Source of the DNA: Bdellovibrionales bacterium | Lineage (GTDB): Bacteria; Bdellovibrionota; FAC87; UBA2466 | Assembly: GCA_005776395.1 (NCBI GenBank) | Contig: SXPJ01000059.1 | Coordinates: 1-42,365, forward strand | Reading direction: 5' to 3' | Length of the DNA stretch: 42,365 nucleotides | Shown here: one piece after another, positions 14,336 through 25,889 of the stretch | Layout: each line of letters starts with the position of its first letter | Position numbering within the stretch: the first letter of the stretch is position 1 | Program-made: the position numbers and the translations under genes | The notes under the pieces: model-generated | Told to the model about the DNA's origin: nothing | The model's input: only the letters and a program-made list of their open reading frames with translations | The model's database searches: none

Positions 14336-14965
14336 ATGAGCACACTGGCACTAAAGATTAGAAAAGCTCTTCCTATAGACGTATTTACGGATACTGAGGT
14401 CGTAAACCTATTGAAGGGATCGCCTAATAGACGCTATGGACTTGTTAAACGAGCCATTGCAGATGGCGATTTAATTCAACTTCGTCGAGGGGTCTATTGC
14501 TTAGGGAAGATCTTTCAACGGGAGCCCCTGAATCAGTTCGAATTAGCTCAGAAAATCTACCCCTCCTCTTATGTGAGCTTGGAATCCGCACTCTCTCACC
14601 ACGGCTGGATTCCAGAAGCGGTTTACACGGTAACAAGTGTTAGTTTAAAAAGATCAGCATCCTTCAAAACTCCACTGGGGAACTTTAGCTATAGGAAAAT
14701 TCCAAAGTTTAATTTCATCGGAGTGGAAAGGGTGGATTTCGGAAGAACGGTGCATTTAATCGCAAGTCCAACGAAGGCGCTAGCAGACTACATTGTCACC
14801 CACAAGATGAATTTACAACCAAAAGAACTAATGGAGTTCTTGCGAATCGAAGAAGAGTACTGGAAACAGCTCTCCTATAAGCTTCTTACTGAAATTATGG
14901 AGAGCTATCGAAGCACTCGTCTAAGGACTTTCCTTAGGGCCTTAAGAAAGGGTAACGAGCTATGA
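14336..14965 (+). CDS. abiEi: AbiEi-type antitoxin and transcriptional repressor
   Basis: The 209-residue protein fits AbiEi, the antitoxin of type IV AbiE abortive-infection systems. The N-terminal winged helix contains RRYGLVKRAIADGDLIQLRR and GVYCLG; the C-terminal domain begins near YPSSYVSLESALSHHGWIPE, the family signature. AbiEi neutralises the toxin without stable binding and represses the operon. A palindromic operator sits directly upstream. The ATG has no recognisable SD, so translation may be weak. The stop overlaps abiEii by 4 bp (ATGA). Location in the accessory block after tRNA-Leu fits horizontal acquisition. Confidence 0.9.
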   Translation: MSTLALKIRKALPIDVFTDTEVVNLLKGSPNRRYGLVKRAIADGDLIQLRRGVYCLGKIFQREPLNQFELAQKIYPSSYVSLESALSHHGWIPEAVYTVTSVSLKRSASFKTPLGNFSYRKIPKFNFIGVERVDFGRTVHLIASPTKALADYIVTHKMNLQPKELMEFLRIEEEYWKQLSYKLLTEIMESYRSTRLRTFLRALRKGNEL

Positions 14966-15819
14966 GCGTAAAAATAATTCAGGACAAGTTGGATAGCTAC
15001 AAATGTCGGTCCACACAGGAGGAGGACTACGCTCTAAAGGAAATTACTCAAGAACTTGTTTTGAATTCGCTCTACAATTCAGGATTCTTCAAGAAGGCTG
15101 CATTTCAAGGAGGGACCGCGCTTCGAATTCTCCATGGTCTAATGCGATTTTCTGAGGATTTGGATTTCGTCCTTCTTAAACCTAACAAGAGTTTTGATCT
15201 TAACACCTACCTTTCCTCCATAAATGCCGAACTGAGGGCCTTTGGTTACGATGTAAAGGTTGAGAGGCGTTCATCCGCAAATGCTGTACAGAACACTTTT
15301 CTAAAGGACGATTCGTTAGGCAGATTGTTAAAAGTTCAATCCCCAAAGGCCGAGGGGCCGAAGAGGGTGCTAAAAATCAAACTTGAAGTGGATACCAATC
15401 CACCTGCCGGAGCAAAAACAGAGACGAAGTTTCTAAATTTTCCGATTAACTTCTCGGTGACGGCTCACGACGTTCCAAGTCTCTTTGCTGGCAAAAGCCA
15501 CGCACTACTTTGTCGCGATTATATCAAGGGGCGAGATTGGTTTGATTTCATTTGGTATGTAGGGCAAAGGGCCGTCCCCAACTTCGAGTTCTTATCCAAT
15601 GCTCTAGAGCAATTTGGATCGTGGAAAGGTAAATCGGTCAAAGCCGATATCAACTGGTACAGGAAGGAGATGGCTCGAAAAATTAAGGAGGTGAACTGGG
15701 ATAAGGCCAAGGCCGATATTCAAAGATTTCTAAGACCGGTCGACGTTAAAACTCTGGAGCTATGGAACGAGAACTTCTTTCTAGACTGTCTCAAGCAAGT
15801 CGGAACTAACGCTAAGTAG
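14962..15819 (+). CDS. abiEii: AbiEii-type nucleotidyltransferase toxin
   Basis: The 285-residue protein has the DNA polymerase beta-like nucleotidyltransferase motifs of AbiEii/MenT toxins: FQGGTALRILHG at 48-59 (GG at 50-51) followed by RFSEDLDF with D66 and D68 as predicted metal ligands. A basic segment follows (RLLKVQSPKAEGPKR), then HALLCRDYIKGRDWFDFIWY, where this family keeps conserved charged residues. MenT relatives add nucleotides to tRNA acceptor ends; AbiEii binds GTP and arrests growth during phage infection. All motifs are intact, so the toxin is probably active. It overlaps the antitoxin gene by 4 bp. Confidence 0.9.
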   Translation: MSVKIIQDKLDSYKCRSTQEEDYALKEITQELVLNSLYNSGFFKKAAFQGGTALRILHGLMRFSEDLDFVLLKPNKSFDLNTYLSSINAELRAFGYDVKVERRSSANAVQNTFLKDDSLGRLLKVQSPKAEGPKRVLKIKLEVDTNPPAGAKTETKFLNFPINFSVTAHDVPSLFAGKSHALLCRDYIKGRDWFDFIWYVGQRAVPNFEFLSNALEQFGSWKGKSVKADINWYRKEMARKIKEVNWDKAKADIQRFLRPVDVKTLELWNENFFLDCLKQVGTNAK

Positions 15820-17725: not shown

Positions 17726-18517
17726 CTACTTTGAATTAAGCTTCACACTAAAAATAGTGTCTAAGGTAAAGATCCAACCGGACTTATGAGGAACCTTATC
17801 TGGCCTTGCTAAACGGGTAACCGGCTCTGTCTCCTCCGCAACCTGAAGCTGAGTTAACTCATAAGTAAACTCTTTAGCGGGATTATGGGGATCAATTACC
17901 ACGATTTGATCTTCTGAAAGTTTCTTTTTTAGCACGACAAAATGCCTTCCAAGAAGTTTTTTATCACGATCATGAACCTGAAAAACAACCATTTTCAATT
18001 CATTAGAATTGGTCTCAAGTTGTTTTCCATCAAACTTCGTCCACACCTTTAAAGGGATCTCTCCTTCACTGGGTTTCGATTGAATAGACCGCTCAGCTGA
18101 AATTTCAAGTGAATGATTAGGTAAATATTTACCTAAATAATTTAACAGCTTTGTCATTTGCGTATTAGTGACTCTGCCAGCCAAGAGCTCTGGAATCGCT
18201 AAAAAGGCCCCCTCTAAAACCGGCTTGGGATTTAAATTTTCTTGCTGTGACATGACTCTAAGTCCCTGAAGCATATTAAAAGCCGTACTCGAAGCACAGG
18301 CCCCCCCACCTTTAGGATCAATATAAGGACCAAAGTCGGACTGCAAAGCTAGCTTAGTTTTCCCTTGGGGATCTACTTTCTGTAACTCTGAAAAGAGATC
18401 GGTGAAACTTGGCTTAGTTACTAAAGCAATTTTTCTTAACGACTCTGGGCAGCTAATACCCCAGCCCACATTAAATGAGAGGAATACAGCGAGTACAAAA
18501 ATATTAAAATGATACAT
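17726..18517 (-). CDS. Exported C39-like putative cysteine peptidase, partner of the exported acyl-CoA dehydrogenase
   Basis: The 263-residue protein begins with a signal peptide (FNIFVLAVFLSFNVGWG, cleavage near GWG-IS). A papain-like Cys appears in DPKGGGACASSTAFNMLQGL, a His in LGRHFVVLKKK and an Asp in VVIDPHNP, in the order and spacing seen in C39-like folds. The final Trp-rich segment SGWIFTLDTIF may close the fold. Activity is not proven; the fold is also used by non-enzymes. It starts only 17 bp after the stop of the acyl-CoA dehydrogenase homologue, so the two are almost certainly co-transcribed and both are exported. Another C39-like protein is encoded at 13103. Confidence 0.65.
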   Translation of the reverse strand: MYHFNIFVLAVFLSFNVGWGISCPESLRKIALVTKPSFTDLFSELQKVDPQGKTKLALQSDFGPYIDPKGGGACASSTAFNMLQGLRVMSQQENLNPKPVLEGAFLAIPELLAGRVTNTQMTKLLNYLGKYLPNHSLEISAERSIQSKPSEGEIPLKVWTKFDGKQLETNSNELKMVVFQVHDRDKKLLGRHFVVLKKKLSEDQIVVIDPHNPAKEFTYELTQLQVAEETEPVTRLARPDKVPHKSGWIFTLDTIFSVKLNSK

Positions 18518-18534
18518 ATTAATTTTACTTAGTT

Positions 18535-19833
18535 TTATCTAGAGCCGAACGCCATATCCCAAAACTCTTGGCCATAAATCTTTCGTACATAATCACTGAT
18601 TAAGACATCAGATGCACCATCCGCAATTCTTAAGCCTCTTAAATCATTTAGCCTCTGCATAAGATCCATATTATCACTATAACCAGAAGCTGCATGGGCT
18701 GAGATAGCAGAATCTACAGCGTCAAAAGCCTTATCAACGCCCCAAGATTTTGCAGCGGCTGCAATTACAGCTGCGGATTTATAATCACCCCCATCCATTA
18801 ATTTCGCGGCCTTTTCCAACTGATCAAAAACCATATTTAACTCGAAAGTTAATTTACCCAAAGGCTGTTGAAGGTGAGTCATCGCTCCTATGGGTTTTCC
18901 ATTAACGATTCGAGTAGCTAAACGTTCTGCGGTCTGTTCAAGGGCTTTTTGAGCCGTTCCAATTGCCGCCGCCGTCTGCATGACTCGCCAATAGGTAAAA
19001 TGTTCCCCAAACAATTTGTGCCCCTCTCCATCCTCTCCGATTCTAAACTTCTCTGGAATAACCAACTTATCAAACGAAACACCCCCAAATGAATTGCCCT
19101 TAAGCCCTGGAGCCTTAAGATCTTTAAATTTTAGTCCGGGGTAATCGATAGGGAGACAGAAAGCATTAAGTTTAGAATGTTCAGGAGTGCTGTTAGGGGC
19201 TTGGGTTATAATAACAACATGTGATGCATTTTTAAGCCTGGCATTATATTTTTTCTCGCCAGTGATTTCATAACCCCCCTCAACTTTTTTTGAACTGCTC
19301 TTCATGCCTCCGATATCAGATCCGTATTCGGGCTCAGTAATAGCAATAGCCATATATCCCTTACCCTGAACCACCTTTTCTAAAATCTCTTTGTGGCCTG
19401 GCTCCTTGGACATAAGAAGAGATCTCGCATGTCCCCCACCAGAAATATCCCTTAAATCCAAAGAGTGCCTTCCGGCATACTGGAATATTTTTACCATTTC
19501 GGAAGGCTTTAAGTTTTCTCCTCCTACCTCTTTCGGAAGATCGAGCCCTGGCAAACCACTTTTGGCCGTTTTTCTTCTCCATGCAACGGGCGAATTAAAT
19601 TTATTAGTTCCATTAAACTCCTCTGCAACTTCATCGATCAGTTTAAAATATTTTTCTTGAACTTCACTTCCCTTAGGACGAAGCGGGTTTGAGTTAAGTT
19701 TAGCGAGTTTAATGCTACAGTTCTGACTTTCCCCTACATCGGGAATAAGGACCCCAAAACAGGGGTTCCATTGTAATGAAATCCCAATGAGCATTACGAA
19801 AACAAAAATCCCTGTCTTTGAACTTATAAACAT
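18535..19833 (-). CDS. Acyl-CoA dehydrogenase family protein with a signal peptide
   Basis: The 432-residue protein has a clear hydrophobic N-terminal leader (GIFVFVMLIGISLQW, before NPCFG) and then a complete acyl-CoA dehydrogenase layout: helical N-domain ending in LPGLDLPKEVGGENL, the beta-domain flavin motif YMAIAITEPEYGSDIGGM, GEKKYNARLKNASHVVIITQ, and the C-terminal helical domain ending RIADGASDVLISDYVRKIYG. The usual catalytic YEGT site reads ADGA, so the base is not in the canonical place. These enzymes are normally cytosolic; no twin-arginine motif is present, so Sec export of an apoprotein is implied. It heads a two-gene operon with the C39-like protein. Substrate and role are unknown. 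A membrane-anchored cytoplasmic enzyme is the alternative. Confidence 0.8.
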   Translation of the reverse strand: MFISSKTGIFVFVMLIGISLQWNPCFGVLIPDVGESQNCSIKLAKLNSNPLRPKGSEVQEKYFKLIDEVAEEFNGTNKFNSPVAWRRKTAKSGLPGLDLPKEVGGENLKPSEMVKIFQYAGRHSLDLRDISGGGHARSLLMSKEPGHKEILEKVVQGKGYMAIAITEPEYGSDIGGMKSSSKKVEGGYEITGEKKYNARLKNASHVVIITQAPNSTPEHSKLNAFCLPIDYPGLKFKDLKAPGLKGNSFGGVSFDKLVIPEKFRIGEDGEGHKLFGEHFTYWRVMQTAAAIGTAQKALEQTAERLATRIVNGKPIGAMTHLQQPLGKLTFELNMVFDQLEKAAKLMDGGDYKSAAVIAAAAKSWGVDKAFDAVDSAISAHAASGYSDNMDLMQRLNDLRGLRIADGASDVLISDYVRKIYGQEFWDMAFGSR

Positions 19834-19959
19834 ACCTATCTTTTCGGTTTTTTAAGTGGATTACTAAAATCATGTCTCATGGCATTATTTAAGGAAATTA
19901 ATAGCCTTAAAAGCCGATTGGGCATAAACTTAAACCTTACCCCTCACAAGGACATCCCC

Positions 19960-20772
19960 ATGAAACAATTCTTAATTAGTCTTTTATCTTTAATAATTTC
20001 CCAATCAGCTCTCGCAGGCTACGATAGCAAACATGCGACTCTAACCGAACTATTAAAAATGCATGTCAAATCCGGCGTAGTAAATTACGAGGGAATAAAA
20101 TCGGAATCCACAAAACTTGACTCCTATCTTGCGCAAGTTAAATCGGTTTCAAAAGAACAATATGCCTCATTTTCAAAGCCAGAGCAGATGGCCTATCTCA
20201 TTAACGCCTATAATGCCTACACTTTAAAAATGATTATCGACTTCTATCCTGTACAGTCTATTCGCGATATAGGTCCACTGGTAGGAGGCAGTCTTTTTAA
20301 TAAAAACTCAAAGCAATGGCGAATTTCAGAGTATGAAGTTAATGGTAAGAAGTTTACTCTTCAGGCCATGGGAAAAGCCATTACTCTCGATGATATTGAA
20401 CACGAAAATCTACGGCCGATATTTAAAGATGCCCGTGTTCATTTTGCCTTAATCTGTGGAGCTATCAGTTGTCCTTTTTTACAATCCGAAGCCTATACAG
20501 CAAAAAATCTTTCAGAGCAGCTCGACTCTCAAGGAAATCAATTTTTAGCGGATCCTTTTAGAAACCGTTTTAATGAAACAGAAAACAGACTCTATCTCTC
20601 TAAAATTTTCGATTGGTTTTCGGATGACTTCAAAAGAGATGCAGGATCGGTAAAAGATTTCATAAGAAAATATCTACCCAAAACTGTTCAGGCTAAAATC
20701 AACGAAGAGACATCCATTTCGCATCTAGACTACGATTGGTCACTTAATAACAAAGCCGGACGAATTCCCTGA
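19960..20772 (+). CDS. Exported DUF547 protein
   Basis: The 270-residue protein has a signal peptide (KQFLISLLSLIISQSALAG, cleavage after ALA) and a DUF547 domain: YLINAYNAYTLKMIIDFYP, the central GGSLFNKNSKQW region, DARVHFALICGAISCPFL and KIFDWFSDDFKRD. DUF547 proteins are widespread exported proteins with no defined activity. The ATG at 19960 is preferred over the in-frame start at 19879 because the signal peptide and AAGGA (8-9 bases upstream) fit it. It is divergent from the exported acyl-CoA dehydrogenase gene, leaving a short shared upstream region. Confidence 0.88.
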   Translation: MKQFLISLLSLIISQSALAGYDSKHATLTELLKMHVKSGVVNYEGIKSESTKLDSYLAQVKSVSKEQYASFSKPEQMAYLINAYNAYTLKMIIDFYPVQSIRDIGPLVGGSLFNKNSKQWRISEYEVNGKKFTLQAMGKAITLDDIEHENLRPIFKDARVHFALICGAISCPFLQSEAYTAKNLSEQLDSQGNQFLADPFRNRFNETENRLYLSKIFDWFSDDFKRDAGSVKDFIRKYLPKTVQAKINEETSISHLDYDWSLNNKAGRIP

Positions 20773-23595: not shown

Positions 23596-24738
23596 ATGTT
23601 TTCATTCACTGAAGAACAAAAACTACTTATTCAATCGGTGACGGCACTTGCTAAGGAACACTTAGCCCCAAGAGCTGAAGAGCTTGATGAAACTGAAAGT
23701 TTCAACACAGTGGCCTTCAAAAAAATGGCAGAATTAGGGCTGCTAGGAATTACGGCTAGTGAAAAATATGGAGGGGCAAATCTAGGGGCTTTTGAAACCA
23801 CTCTAGTGATGGAAAAATTAGCAGAGGCTTGTGCCTCAACCACCCTCTCCTATTTAGCCCATTCCATTTTGTGTGTGAATAATATTCACGCAAACGCCTC
23901 CGAGGCTCAGAAACAAAAATATTTACCTAAACTAATTTCAGGCGAATGGTTAGGGGGCATGGCTATGACAGAGCCAGAAGCAGGTAGTGATGCTCTTGGG
24001 CTCCTCACTAAAGCTGAAAAAAAAGGTGCTAAATATATTCTAAATGGCGCTAAGACCTACATTACTAATGGTCCTGGCGGAGATATCTTTGTCGTTTACG
24101 CAAAAACAGGCCCTTCAAGAAAAGATGTCAGCACTTTTATCGTTGAGAGTAAATTTCCAGGATTCAAAGTAAGCAAAAAGCTAAAAAAAATGGGGATGAG
24201 AGCCTCCCCTACTGCAGAGTTAGCTTTTATTGACTGTGAAGTTCCCGTTGAAAACTTGATCGGGAAAGAGAACGACAGCATCTCTCACATGATGAAGAAT
24301 TTAAATTTGGAAAGAATTACCATTTCCGGAATATCACTGGGAATCACCTCGGCCTGCTTAAATTACTGTTCACGCTTTGTTCAGGAGCGGCATCAATTTG
24401 GAAAACCTTTGAGCCACTTCCAGATGGTTCAGGAAAGAGTTGCGGAAATGGCAACCCATCTTGATGCAGGAAGAGCTCTCTGTTACACAGCCGCTCAACG
24501 TTTCGACTCAGGCGACACCGATTCCACTCTAGGGGCCAAATGTAAGCTTTTCACAGCTCAAATGGGAACTCATGCAGGCATCGAGGCTATTCAGTTACTC
24601 GGAGGGGCGGGGTATATGAAAGAGTACCCTGTAGAACGCTACATGCGAGATGCAAAACTTATGGAAATTGGGGCCGGCACCAATGAGATCATGCGCATTA
24701 TTATTGCCAAATCACTTCTGAATCTAAAGGAGAAATAA
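23596..24738 (+). CDS. Acyl-CoA dehydrogenase, isovaleryl-CoA dehydrogenase type
   Basis: This 380-residue flavoenzyme has GGMAMTEPEAGSDALGL (flavin contacts), GAKTYITNGPGGDIFVVYA, and the C-terminal RYMRDAKLMEIGAGTNEIMR. The EIGAGT sequence, without Glu in the YEGT position, is the hallmark of isovaleryl-CoA dehydrogenases, which take their base from an earlier helix; the matching NLERI segment is present. The likely reaction is isovaleryl-CoA to 3-methylcrotonyl-CoA in leucine breakdown, passing electrons to ETF, but other branched substrates are possible. AGGA precedes the ATG. A second acyl-CoA dehydrogenase starts 5 bp after the stop. Confidence 0.88.
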   Translation: MFSFTEEQKLLIQSVTALAKEHLAPRAEELDETESFNTVAFKKMAELGLLGITASEKYGGANLGAFETTLVMEKLAEACASTTLSYLAHSILCVNNIHANASEAQKQKYLPKLISGEWLGGMAMTEPEAGSDALGLLTKAEKKGAKYILNGAKTYITNGPGGDIFVVYAKTGPSRKDVSTFIVESKFPGFKVSKKLKKMGMRASPTAELAFIDCEVPVENLIGKENDSISHMMKNLNLERITISGISLGITSACLNYCSRFVQERHQFGKPLSHFQMVQERVAEMATHLDAGRALCYTAAQRFDSGDTDSTLGAKCKLFTAQMGTHAGIEAIQLLGGAGYMKEYPVERYMRDAKLMEIGAGTNEIMRIIIAKSLLNLKEK

Positions 24739-24743
24739 CTCTC

Positions 24744-25889
24744 GTGGCACTCATTTTTTATCCTCCAACTCAAAGTGACGAGACTGCCGTCAGACAAAAA
24801 ACTCAAGAGTTCTATCAAAAGTGGATACTCCCGACCGCTCTCGAAGAGGATCGGAAAGAACTATTCCGTCGGGATCTGGTGAGTCTCTTTGGAAAAGCTG
24901 GACTTATCGCGCAAGCAATCTCAAAGGACTTTGGGGGCGGAGGGGGCTCTTATCGATGTCATTATTCAGTTATTGAGGAGCTCGCAAAAGGGCCAATCGC
25001 ATTTTCAGTTTCAATATCCGTTAGCAATTTAGTTATGGGAGGAATTCTTACTTTTGGAAATGAAACCCAAAAAAAAACCTACCTTCCGAAACTCACCGCT
25101 GGAGAATGGTTAGGGGCCTTCGCTCTTTCAGAACCCCAATCAGGAAGCGATGCTGCGGGGCTCATGCTAAGGGCCACAAAAGTTCCAGGGGGCTACTCAC
25201 TGACAGGAAATAAATCCTGGTGCAGCAGTGGTGGAAATGCCGATCTTTATCTTGTCATGGGAAGAACGGGCGAACATAAAACAAAAGGGATCTCCTCTTT
25301 TTTAGTCACCCAAAACACCCAAGGTTTTCGAATCGGAAAGAGAGAAAAAAAGTTAGGACTAAAATCCTCTGCCCTTACGGAACTTATCTTTGAAAATTGT
25401 TTTATTCCGGACTCACAACTATTGGGAAAAGAGGGGGCCGGTTTTGAAATAGCTCTTTCTCAACTAGACACGGGTCGAATTGGGATTGGGGCTTGTGGGG
25501 CTGGCATTGCCACGGCGGCTATCGAACGAATGCAAAAAGAGCTCAATGGAGATTTTGGTAAAACCTGTCTATTTAAAGAGTCAATTGCTCAACAATTTAG
25601 CGAGTACTACGCTCGACTTCAGGCGATTAAACTCCTCATCACAACTGCCTCTGAGCTAAAGGACAAAAAACAGAATATTAAAGTTCTAGCCGCTCAGATC
25701 AAACTACTAGCCTCTGATCTTGCTATGGAGGTAAGTCAGGATCTAGTCCACTTTTTAGGCGAGCGCGGTTTTCAGGAGGAGGAACAGGTAGAGCGATTCT
25801 TTAGAGATGCTAAGGCTCTTCAAATCGTAGAAGGAACCAACCAGATTCAACAATTAGTCATTGCTCGAGAAATGGAGAATATGGTTTGA
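24744..25889 (+). CDS. Acyl-CoA dehydrogenase (canonical catalytic Glu)
   Basis: This 381-residue acyl-CoA dehydrogenase shows GAFALSEPQSGSDAAGL, the KSWCSSGGNADLYLVMGRTG segment, and the C-terminal RFFRDAKALQIVEGTNQIQQ with the standard catalytic Glu in the VEGT position. That differs from its upstream neighbour, so the two probably act on different acyl-CoAs. It begins with GTG about 10 bases after AGGAGA and 5 bp after the previous stop. Its own stop overlaps the pgi start in TTGA. Chain-length preference cannot be read from sequence. Confidence 0.88.
   Translation: MALIFYPPTQSDETAVRQKTQEFYQKWILPTALEEDRKELFRRDLVSLFGKAGLIAQAISKDFGGGGGSYRCHYSVIEELAKGPIAFSVSISVSNLVMGGILTFGNETQKKTYLPKLTAGEWLGAFALSEPQSGSDAAGLMLRATKVPGGYSLTGNKSWCSSGGNADLYLVMGRTGEHKTKGISSFLVTQNTQGFRIGKREKKLGLKSSALTELIFENCFIPDSQLLGKEGAGFEIALSQLDTGRIGIGACGAGIATAAIERMQKELNGDFGKTCLFKESIAQQFSEYYARLQAIKLLITTASELKDKKQNIKVLAAQIKLLASDLAMEVSQDLVHFLGERGFQEEEQVERFFRDAKALQIVEGTNQIQQLVIAREMENMV

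Follow-up and report, generated by a model that had tools for sequence, protein, structure and literature searches.

Acyl-CoA dehydrogenases (ACADs) usually act on CoA substrates, which do not occur outside the cytoplasm. What, then, could be the role of an ACAD homologue that begins with an apparent export leader and is encoded next to a second leader-bearing protein? This gene pair lies in a 42,365-nt contig of a Bdellovibrionales bacterium (SXPJ01000059.1), the whole of which we refer to as the window. A preliminary description of the window had proposed that the two proteins form an envelope-located unit built around a repurposed flavin fold.

The gene pair, its leaders and a papain-like fold

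The ACAD-fold gene lies upstream of the papain-like gene, both on the minus strand and separated by 17 bp (Table 1), in agreement with the preliminary description. The window ACAD matches the Pfam C-terminal domain (PF00441, E 9e-22) and middle domain (PF02770, E 7e-12), both above the gathering score, and shows a weak Pfam match in its N domain; its closest PDB relatives are 1ws9, 6fah and 1ukw. The papain-like protein matches no family in Pfam or NCBIfam.

Table 1 Coordinates of the features discussed (bare positions refer to the window; others are prefixed with the locus).
Feature	Position	Strand	Remarks
ACAD-fold gene	18535..19833	minus	432 aa with N-terminal leader; Pfam/NCBIfam ACAD matches
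ACAD leader, about residues 1-28 (MFISSKTGIFVFVMLIGISLQWNPCFG)	19750..19833	minus	Approximate cleavage site; hydropathy 3.28 at residue 8
ITEPEYGSD, residues 165-173, flavin-site motif common to ordinary ACADs	19315..19341	minus	T166, E167, G171 in 29/29; 172 Ser or Thr
YNAR, residues 196-199, family motif at the ordinary W-I-T-N	19237..19248	minus	A198, R199 in 29/29
Arg283, general ACAD arginine	18985..18987	minus	29/29 family, 23/23 ordinary ACADs
Asp405, presumed catalytic base at the MCAD catalytic Glu position	18619..18621	minus	Asp in 29/29
Intergenic gap, ACAD gene/papain-like gene	18518..18534	.	17 bp
Papain-like cysteine protein gene	17726..18517	minus	263 aa with leader; AlphaFold2 model and Foldseek
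Papain-like protein leader, about residues 1-22	18452..18517	minus	Hydropathy 2.99 at residue 5
Cys74, presumed nucleophile, GGGAC motif	18296..18298	minus	30/30 relatives; N-terminus of helix 74-89 in model
His192, GRHFV motif	17942..17944	minus	30/30 relatives
Asp209, DP motif, third triad residue	17891..17893	minus	Asp 23, Asn 6, Ser 1 of 30
Fusion locus with CBASS cyclase, E2, phospholipase	L102:8506-13548	same for fusion and CBASS	Phospholipase gene ends 45 bp upstream of fusion
Fusion locus with Wadjet JetA/JetB	L094:1378-9914		
Fusion locus with BREX BrxC	L096:9010-16348		
Fusion locus with Avs2	L099:1512-17214		
Fusion locus with type I RM	L070:7615-17966		
Fusion locus with type I RM	L104:8802-18172		
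AAT/TPR gene	L072:10857-12743, L076:1349-3238, L074:5611-7497, L079:3004-4890		

Both N-termini contain a short hydrophobic core, with best 10-residue Kyte-Doolittle means of 3.28 (ACAD) and 2.99 (papain-like protein), and neither contains a twin-arginine motif, bearing out the Sec-type leader described earlier for the ACAD. We call these signal peptides based on hydropathy and on the recurrence of leaders among relatives; by hydropathy, two ordinary ACADs encoded in the same window (23596-24738 and 24744-25889) have no such leader. We ruled out a mis-called ACAD start: in the first 112 codons, in-frame ATG, GTG or TTG codons occur only at positions 1, 14 and 94. Codon 14 falls within the leader and codon 94 within the ACAD N domain, which is conserved, so a full-length protein without a leader cannot arise from such starts. 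Full-length ACAD orthologues also begin with hydrophobic leaders.

An AlphaFold2 model of the papain-like window protein (pLDDT 88.4, pTM 0.82) returned staphopains as its sole confident Foldseek matches (1cv8 and 8oig; probability 1.00, E 6e-4 and 7e-4, TMt 0.50 and 0.55). In our sequence alignment, the Cys, His and Asp/Asn of the triad are kept in 30, 30 and 29 of 30 relatives, respectively. As in staphopains (C47) and C39-type peptidases, the cysteine starts the central helix of a papain fold and the His and Asp/Asn lie on the sheet; like staphopain, the protein is predicted to be exported. Unlike these peptidases, the family has no sequence-family match, its possible oxyanion Gln lies 15 rather than 6 residues before the Cys, and it always accompanies an ACAD domain, except for two distant relatives (L054 and L055) that occur without one. 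Of the earlier label “C39-like”, the papain Cys-His-Asp pattern holds but the C39 assignment does not: the Peptidase C39 profile (PF03412) does not match the window protein, and it gives sub-threshold matches (E 0.1-0.2) to L054 and L055.

Split genes and fusions in three phyla

Within the window's genus, the two domains are encoded by separate genes, with identities of 58-65% for the ACAD and 43-53% for the papain-like protein. The genes are adjacent in three genomes (G000, G003 and G001), with a 1-nt overlap in G003 and 9 nt between them in G001, and are both present but unlinked in G002 and G004. In G001 the pair sits at a contig end that truncates the ACAD gene, and the ACAD N-terminal part is found at the end of a second contig. 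The papain-like gene occurs in all six genomes of the genus, mostly at one conserved locus; in G005 (83% complete), it alone was seen.

Outside this genus, all 24 loci found to carry the ACAD family encode both domains in a single ORF. These fusions comprise one from another Bdellovibrionota family (G039, a 663-aa ORF with a single leader), 22 from Planctomycetota and one from Myxococcaceae. Against the ACAD profile they all exceed 560 bits, whereas ordinary ACADs of the same genomes reach at most 148 bits. Scanning genome contigs with the papain-like profile revealed further relatives in the Myxococcaceae MAG and in Planctomycetota, each with an ACAD domain in the same ORF. Our profile searches covered 392 planctomycete genomes, 195 from the phylum of the Myxococcaceae MAG, 369 from the window's phylum and 297 from one planctomycete order; the distribution is a sample rather than a census, and search E-values are per genome. 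A search for plasmid-borne copies found generic ACADs only.

The two domains also track one another across genomes. In the window's phylum, seven genomes gave a strong papain-like match and six of them also have the ACAD (Fisher p 2e-12, uncorrected for relatedness). No ACAD of the family was found in a genome lacking the papain-like partner, and this holds for G002 and G004 too. The two-protein unit proposed earlier is thus strongly supported, both by fusions in three phyla and by co-presence even where the genes are unlinked. The refuting outcomes named with that proposal, namely homologues lacking the leader, genes never found side by side or a mis-called start, were checked and did not apply. 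Since the same two parts are found fused as one leader-bearing protein in other bacteria, the pair points to an undescribed two-part enzyme predicted to work outside the cytoplasm. A literature search found no description of an acyl-CoA dehydrogenase that is periplasmic, exported or secreted, and none of a papain-like domain paired with an ACAD domain.

In phylogenetic analysis, the exported-type ACADs form a single clade (100/100 support), far from ordinary ACADs; the stem leading to it has a length of 2.5 changes per site. Inside it, the separate genes of the window's genus cluster as one clade (99/99), and a second clade (100/100) holds the planctomycete fusions. The existence of both domain orders, together with the patchy distribution, suggests horizontal spread.

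By hydropathy, 23 of the 24 fusions have an N-terminal leader, in many cases with a plausible Ala-X-Ala-type cleavage site downstream. Only the Myxococcaceae fusion (L039:1831-3831, plus strand) lacks a leader; its domain order is also reversed, with the ACAD preceding the papain-like domain, and its Arg/Ala-rich N-terminus with VQR motifs suggests another localisation route or a cytosolic form. This leaderless protein, the retention of Arg283 and the predicted nature of leader function would fit a scenario in which the leaders anchor the proteins in the membrane or fail to direct export, and the pair functions at or inside the cytoplasm as an atypical CoA-dependent ACAD together with a hydrolase. 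We consider this very unlikely, given the leaders on both split proteins and on nearly all fusions, many with a plausible cleavage site, and given that the extracellular structural relatives of the papain-like domain, the staphopains, fit export better. The leaders instead support the envelope location that was proposed for the pair.

We also considered other export routes. Tat export was rejected: the window protein has no twin-arginine motif, and one fusion (L043) contains the sequence TRRIFAF while most others have no such motif. A cysteine following the leader is kept across the genus in both split proteins (papain-like Cys23, 18449-18451; ACAD Cys39, 19717-19719), and is missing from the sampled planctomycete fusions. 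We rejected an acylated lipoprotein, as the residue preceding this cysteine varies (Ser, Asn or Asp) and no canonical lipobox is kept. Cys23 and Cys74 are the only cysteines of the window papain-like protein, making a disulfide or redox switch possible.

The ACAD domain and its altered active site

We compared 29 ACAD sequences of the family with 23 rows of ordinary ACADs (two of the 23 being duplicates). The fold of the window ACAD was taken from its sequence and from a model of a fused homologue (L011), whose ACAD domain resembles solved ACADs (Foldseek E 6e-21, TMt 0.81-0.87); the fusion model has a pTM of 0.59, and the relative placement of its two domains is uncertain. Like MCAD, SCAD, IVD and glutaryl-CoA dehydrogenase, the family has the three-domain fold, the ITExxxGS/T motif, Arg283, Arg308 and a C-terminal G-T. 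Residues common to the family and ordinary ACADs are T166, E167, G171, Arg283 (equivalent to R287 of IVD and R631 of ACAD11), Arg308, D397 and G406. The family differs from this superfamily in its predicted export, its pairing or fusion with a papain-like domain, an Asp in place of the Glu base, Ala-Arg in place of Thr-Asn beside the flavin, a polar pocket and its position in a separate clade.

The family-specific residues are Asp405, Trp282, Ala198-Arg199 and Asn247. At positions 198 and 199, ordinary ACADs have Thr (20/23) and Asn (20/23); at position 405 they have Glu (19/23) or else Ala (4/23), in which case Glu is found at position 282. The classical catalytic Glu is therefore missing from both its MCAD C-terminal helix and IVD positions, with Asp405 and Trp282 in all 29 family members. 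Because an Asp base is accepted in ACAD10/11, membership in the superfamily stands, and membership among classical acyl-CoA dehydrogenases does not. The preliminary description had noted ADGA instead of the catalytic Glu site: the Glu is indeed absent, but the site is an invariant Asp, and because Asp is an established base here in ACAD10/11 and LvaC (PMC12440821), Asp405 implies no loss of the catalytic base.

ACAD10/11 and LvaC resemble the family both in this Asp and in charged residues of the acyl pocket, and in ACAD10/11 the ACAD domain is likewise joined to another catalytic domain (PMC12440821). They differ in that the partner is a kinase rather than a papain fold, in being intracellular and in using CoA thioester substrates; the profile match to ACAD11 (8v3u, 105.5 bits) is only moderate. 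Eight further charged residues are family-specific and invariant in the 29 sequences (R128, D129, H135, R137, H278, R304, H320 and R394), suggesting a polar substrate rather than a fatty acyl chain. PigA, AnaB and ColB1, among the closest structural matches to the ACAD domain of the fusion model, share the fold and are described as acting on aminoacyl groups tethered to assembly lines or carriers. These enzymes are cytosolic and require a phosphopantetheine carrier, and none is known to be fused to a cysteine hydrolase. The altered active site, with Ala198-Arg199 for Thr-Asn, Asp405, Trp282 and a polar pocket, fits the repurposed flavin fold suggested earlier, and the redox or peptide-modifying role raised in the same description is a plausible hypothesis.

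The main alternative to an active flavoenzyme is that the ACAD domain has lost its catalytic function. It could serve as a scaffold for binding or oligomerisation, directing to its target an exported protease or amidase of papain-like fold that performs all chemistry. FAD is scarce outside the cytoplasm, in keeping with such a scaffold, and the papain residues are fully kept. In human IVD, R287 is the general Arg, R312 the FAD Arg, and T200 and Q323 contact FAD, with T200 hydrogen-bonding the isoalloxazine (PMC12369846). The family keeps both arginines (R312 as R308), along with T166, E167, G171, S/T172, G406 and T/A407 of the flavin site, and replaces T200 with Ala in all 29 sequences and Q323 with Thr; flavin chemistry may thus be altered or lost. 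On the other hand, the invariance of Asp405, Arg283, Arg308 and ITExxxGS/T over three phyla would be unexpected in a dead scaffold. We view the scaffold as an unlikely but serious explanation, and the retained flavin-site and general ACAD residues indicate that the domain is probably still an enzyme.

Genomic context and a proposed mechanism

The planctomycete fusion gene stands alone and often lies within genomic islands. PADLOC models matched among its neighbours number 241, versus 60 in random windows of the same genomes. Counted per locus, a high-scoring defence gene is present at 6 of 14 planctomycete fusion loci versus about 1 of 14 control windows (Fisher one-sided p 0.038, in a test on 14 loci prompted by viewing them), the control gene being a type II methyltransferase. 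In addition, an SNF2 helicase matching HmaA (501 bits) lies directly upstream of the fusion at L095 (4596-8165), with an N6-methylase-like gene on the helicase's other side.

These neighbours raise the idea that the planctomycete fusion is an anti-phage defence component or accessory in the envelope, acting for instance on incoming phage or envelope peptides. The known defence genes within ~10 kb of the fusions, and HmaA at L095, are in its favour when set against the matched controls. The sample is small and partly post hoc, however, its loci are not fully independent, and defence islands gather unrelated mobile genes. Moreover, the papain-like gene in the window's genus keeps mostly to its one conserved locus, where no defence gene recurs consistently, export is unusual among defence proteins, and neither domain is recognized by PADLOC (no match at E 1 for two fusions and both window proteins). 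We judge a defence role decidedly unlikely, and treat the proximity as a lead, not a demonstration.

Within the window, AbiEi/AbiEii toxin-antitoxin genes (14336-15819, plus strand; PADLOC 200 and 330 bits) are separated from the pair by an MFS transporter gene. On the other side, a DUF547 gene (19879-20772, plus strand) probably starts near 19960 (MKQFLISLL..., a leader) rather than at its first ATG at 19879; this would widen the divergent intergenic region to ~126 bp. The MFS, DUF547 and glyoxalase neighbours were rejected as partners, as they reflect genus synteny only. An exported AAT-family (PF03417) Ntn-hydrolase with TPR repeats is syntenic beside the pair in five genus members and missing at the window locus. 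We rejected it as a third part: the window's genome contains nothing closer than a 26% paralogue at another locus, and the gene is absent nearby in other lineages. No neighbour gene conserved across lineages was found that would point to a substrate.

Overall, we favor a model, with a probability of about 0.5, in which the two genes are halves of one extracytoplasmic enzyme that is fused in most other lineages, an exported bifunctional protein combining a cysteine domain with ACAD-type oxidation. Fusion in 24 loci, three phyla and both domain orders supports this model, as does conservation of the catalytic residues of both domains across phyla. The pairing and fusion, leaders, papain Cys-His-Asp/Asn, ACAD fold and flavin-site motif, Arg283 and Asp405 are read from sequence; from these we infer chemistry, substrate and flavin binding.

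In this mechanism, Sec export would come first, followed by FAD binding to the ACAD domain. Cys74 of the papain-like domain would attack an amide or ester to form an acyl-enzyme thioester, and the acyl group would then be released or transferred. Fusion and co-occurrence suggest that both activities act on one substrate. In the ACAD domain, Asp405 would serve as the base and FAD would accept the hydride, oxidising a group on that substrate that is small and polar (acyl, aminoacyl or peptide), most likely by alpha,beta-dehydrogenation. Either O2 or an electron carrier of the envelope, not cytosolic ETF, would then reoxidise the flavin. Predicted export argues against a CoA thioester substrate, although Arg283 is kept. 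In a bolder version, the acyl-Cys74 thioester itself would stand in for the CoA or carrier thioester, allowing the ACAD domain to dehydrogenate acyl or peptidyl groups extracytoplasmically as a new class of flavoenzyme. The idea is attractive because ACAD chemistry requires an acidified alpha-proton, and we regard it as a long shot.

The frequent CBASS, Wadjet, BREX, Avs and RM neighbours in planctomycetes offer a separate, testable lead. The system appears self-contained, comprising one gene in most hosts. A leader-bearing ACAD fold joined to a cysteine hydrolase in three phyla would represent either ACAD chemistry freed from CoA, or the recruitment of this fold for another job in the envelope.
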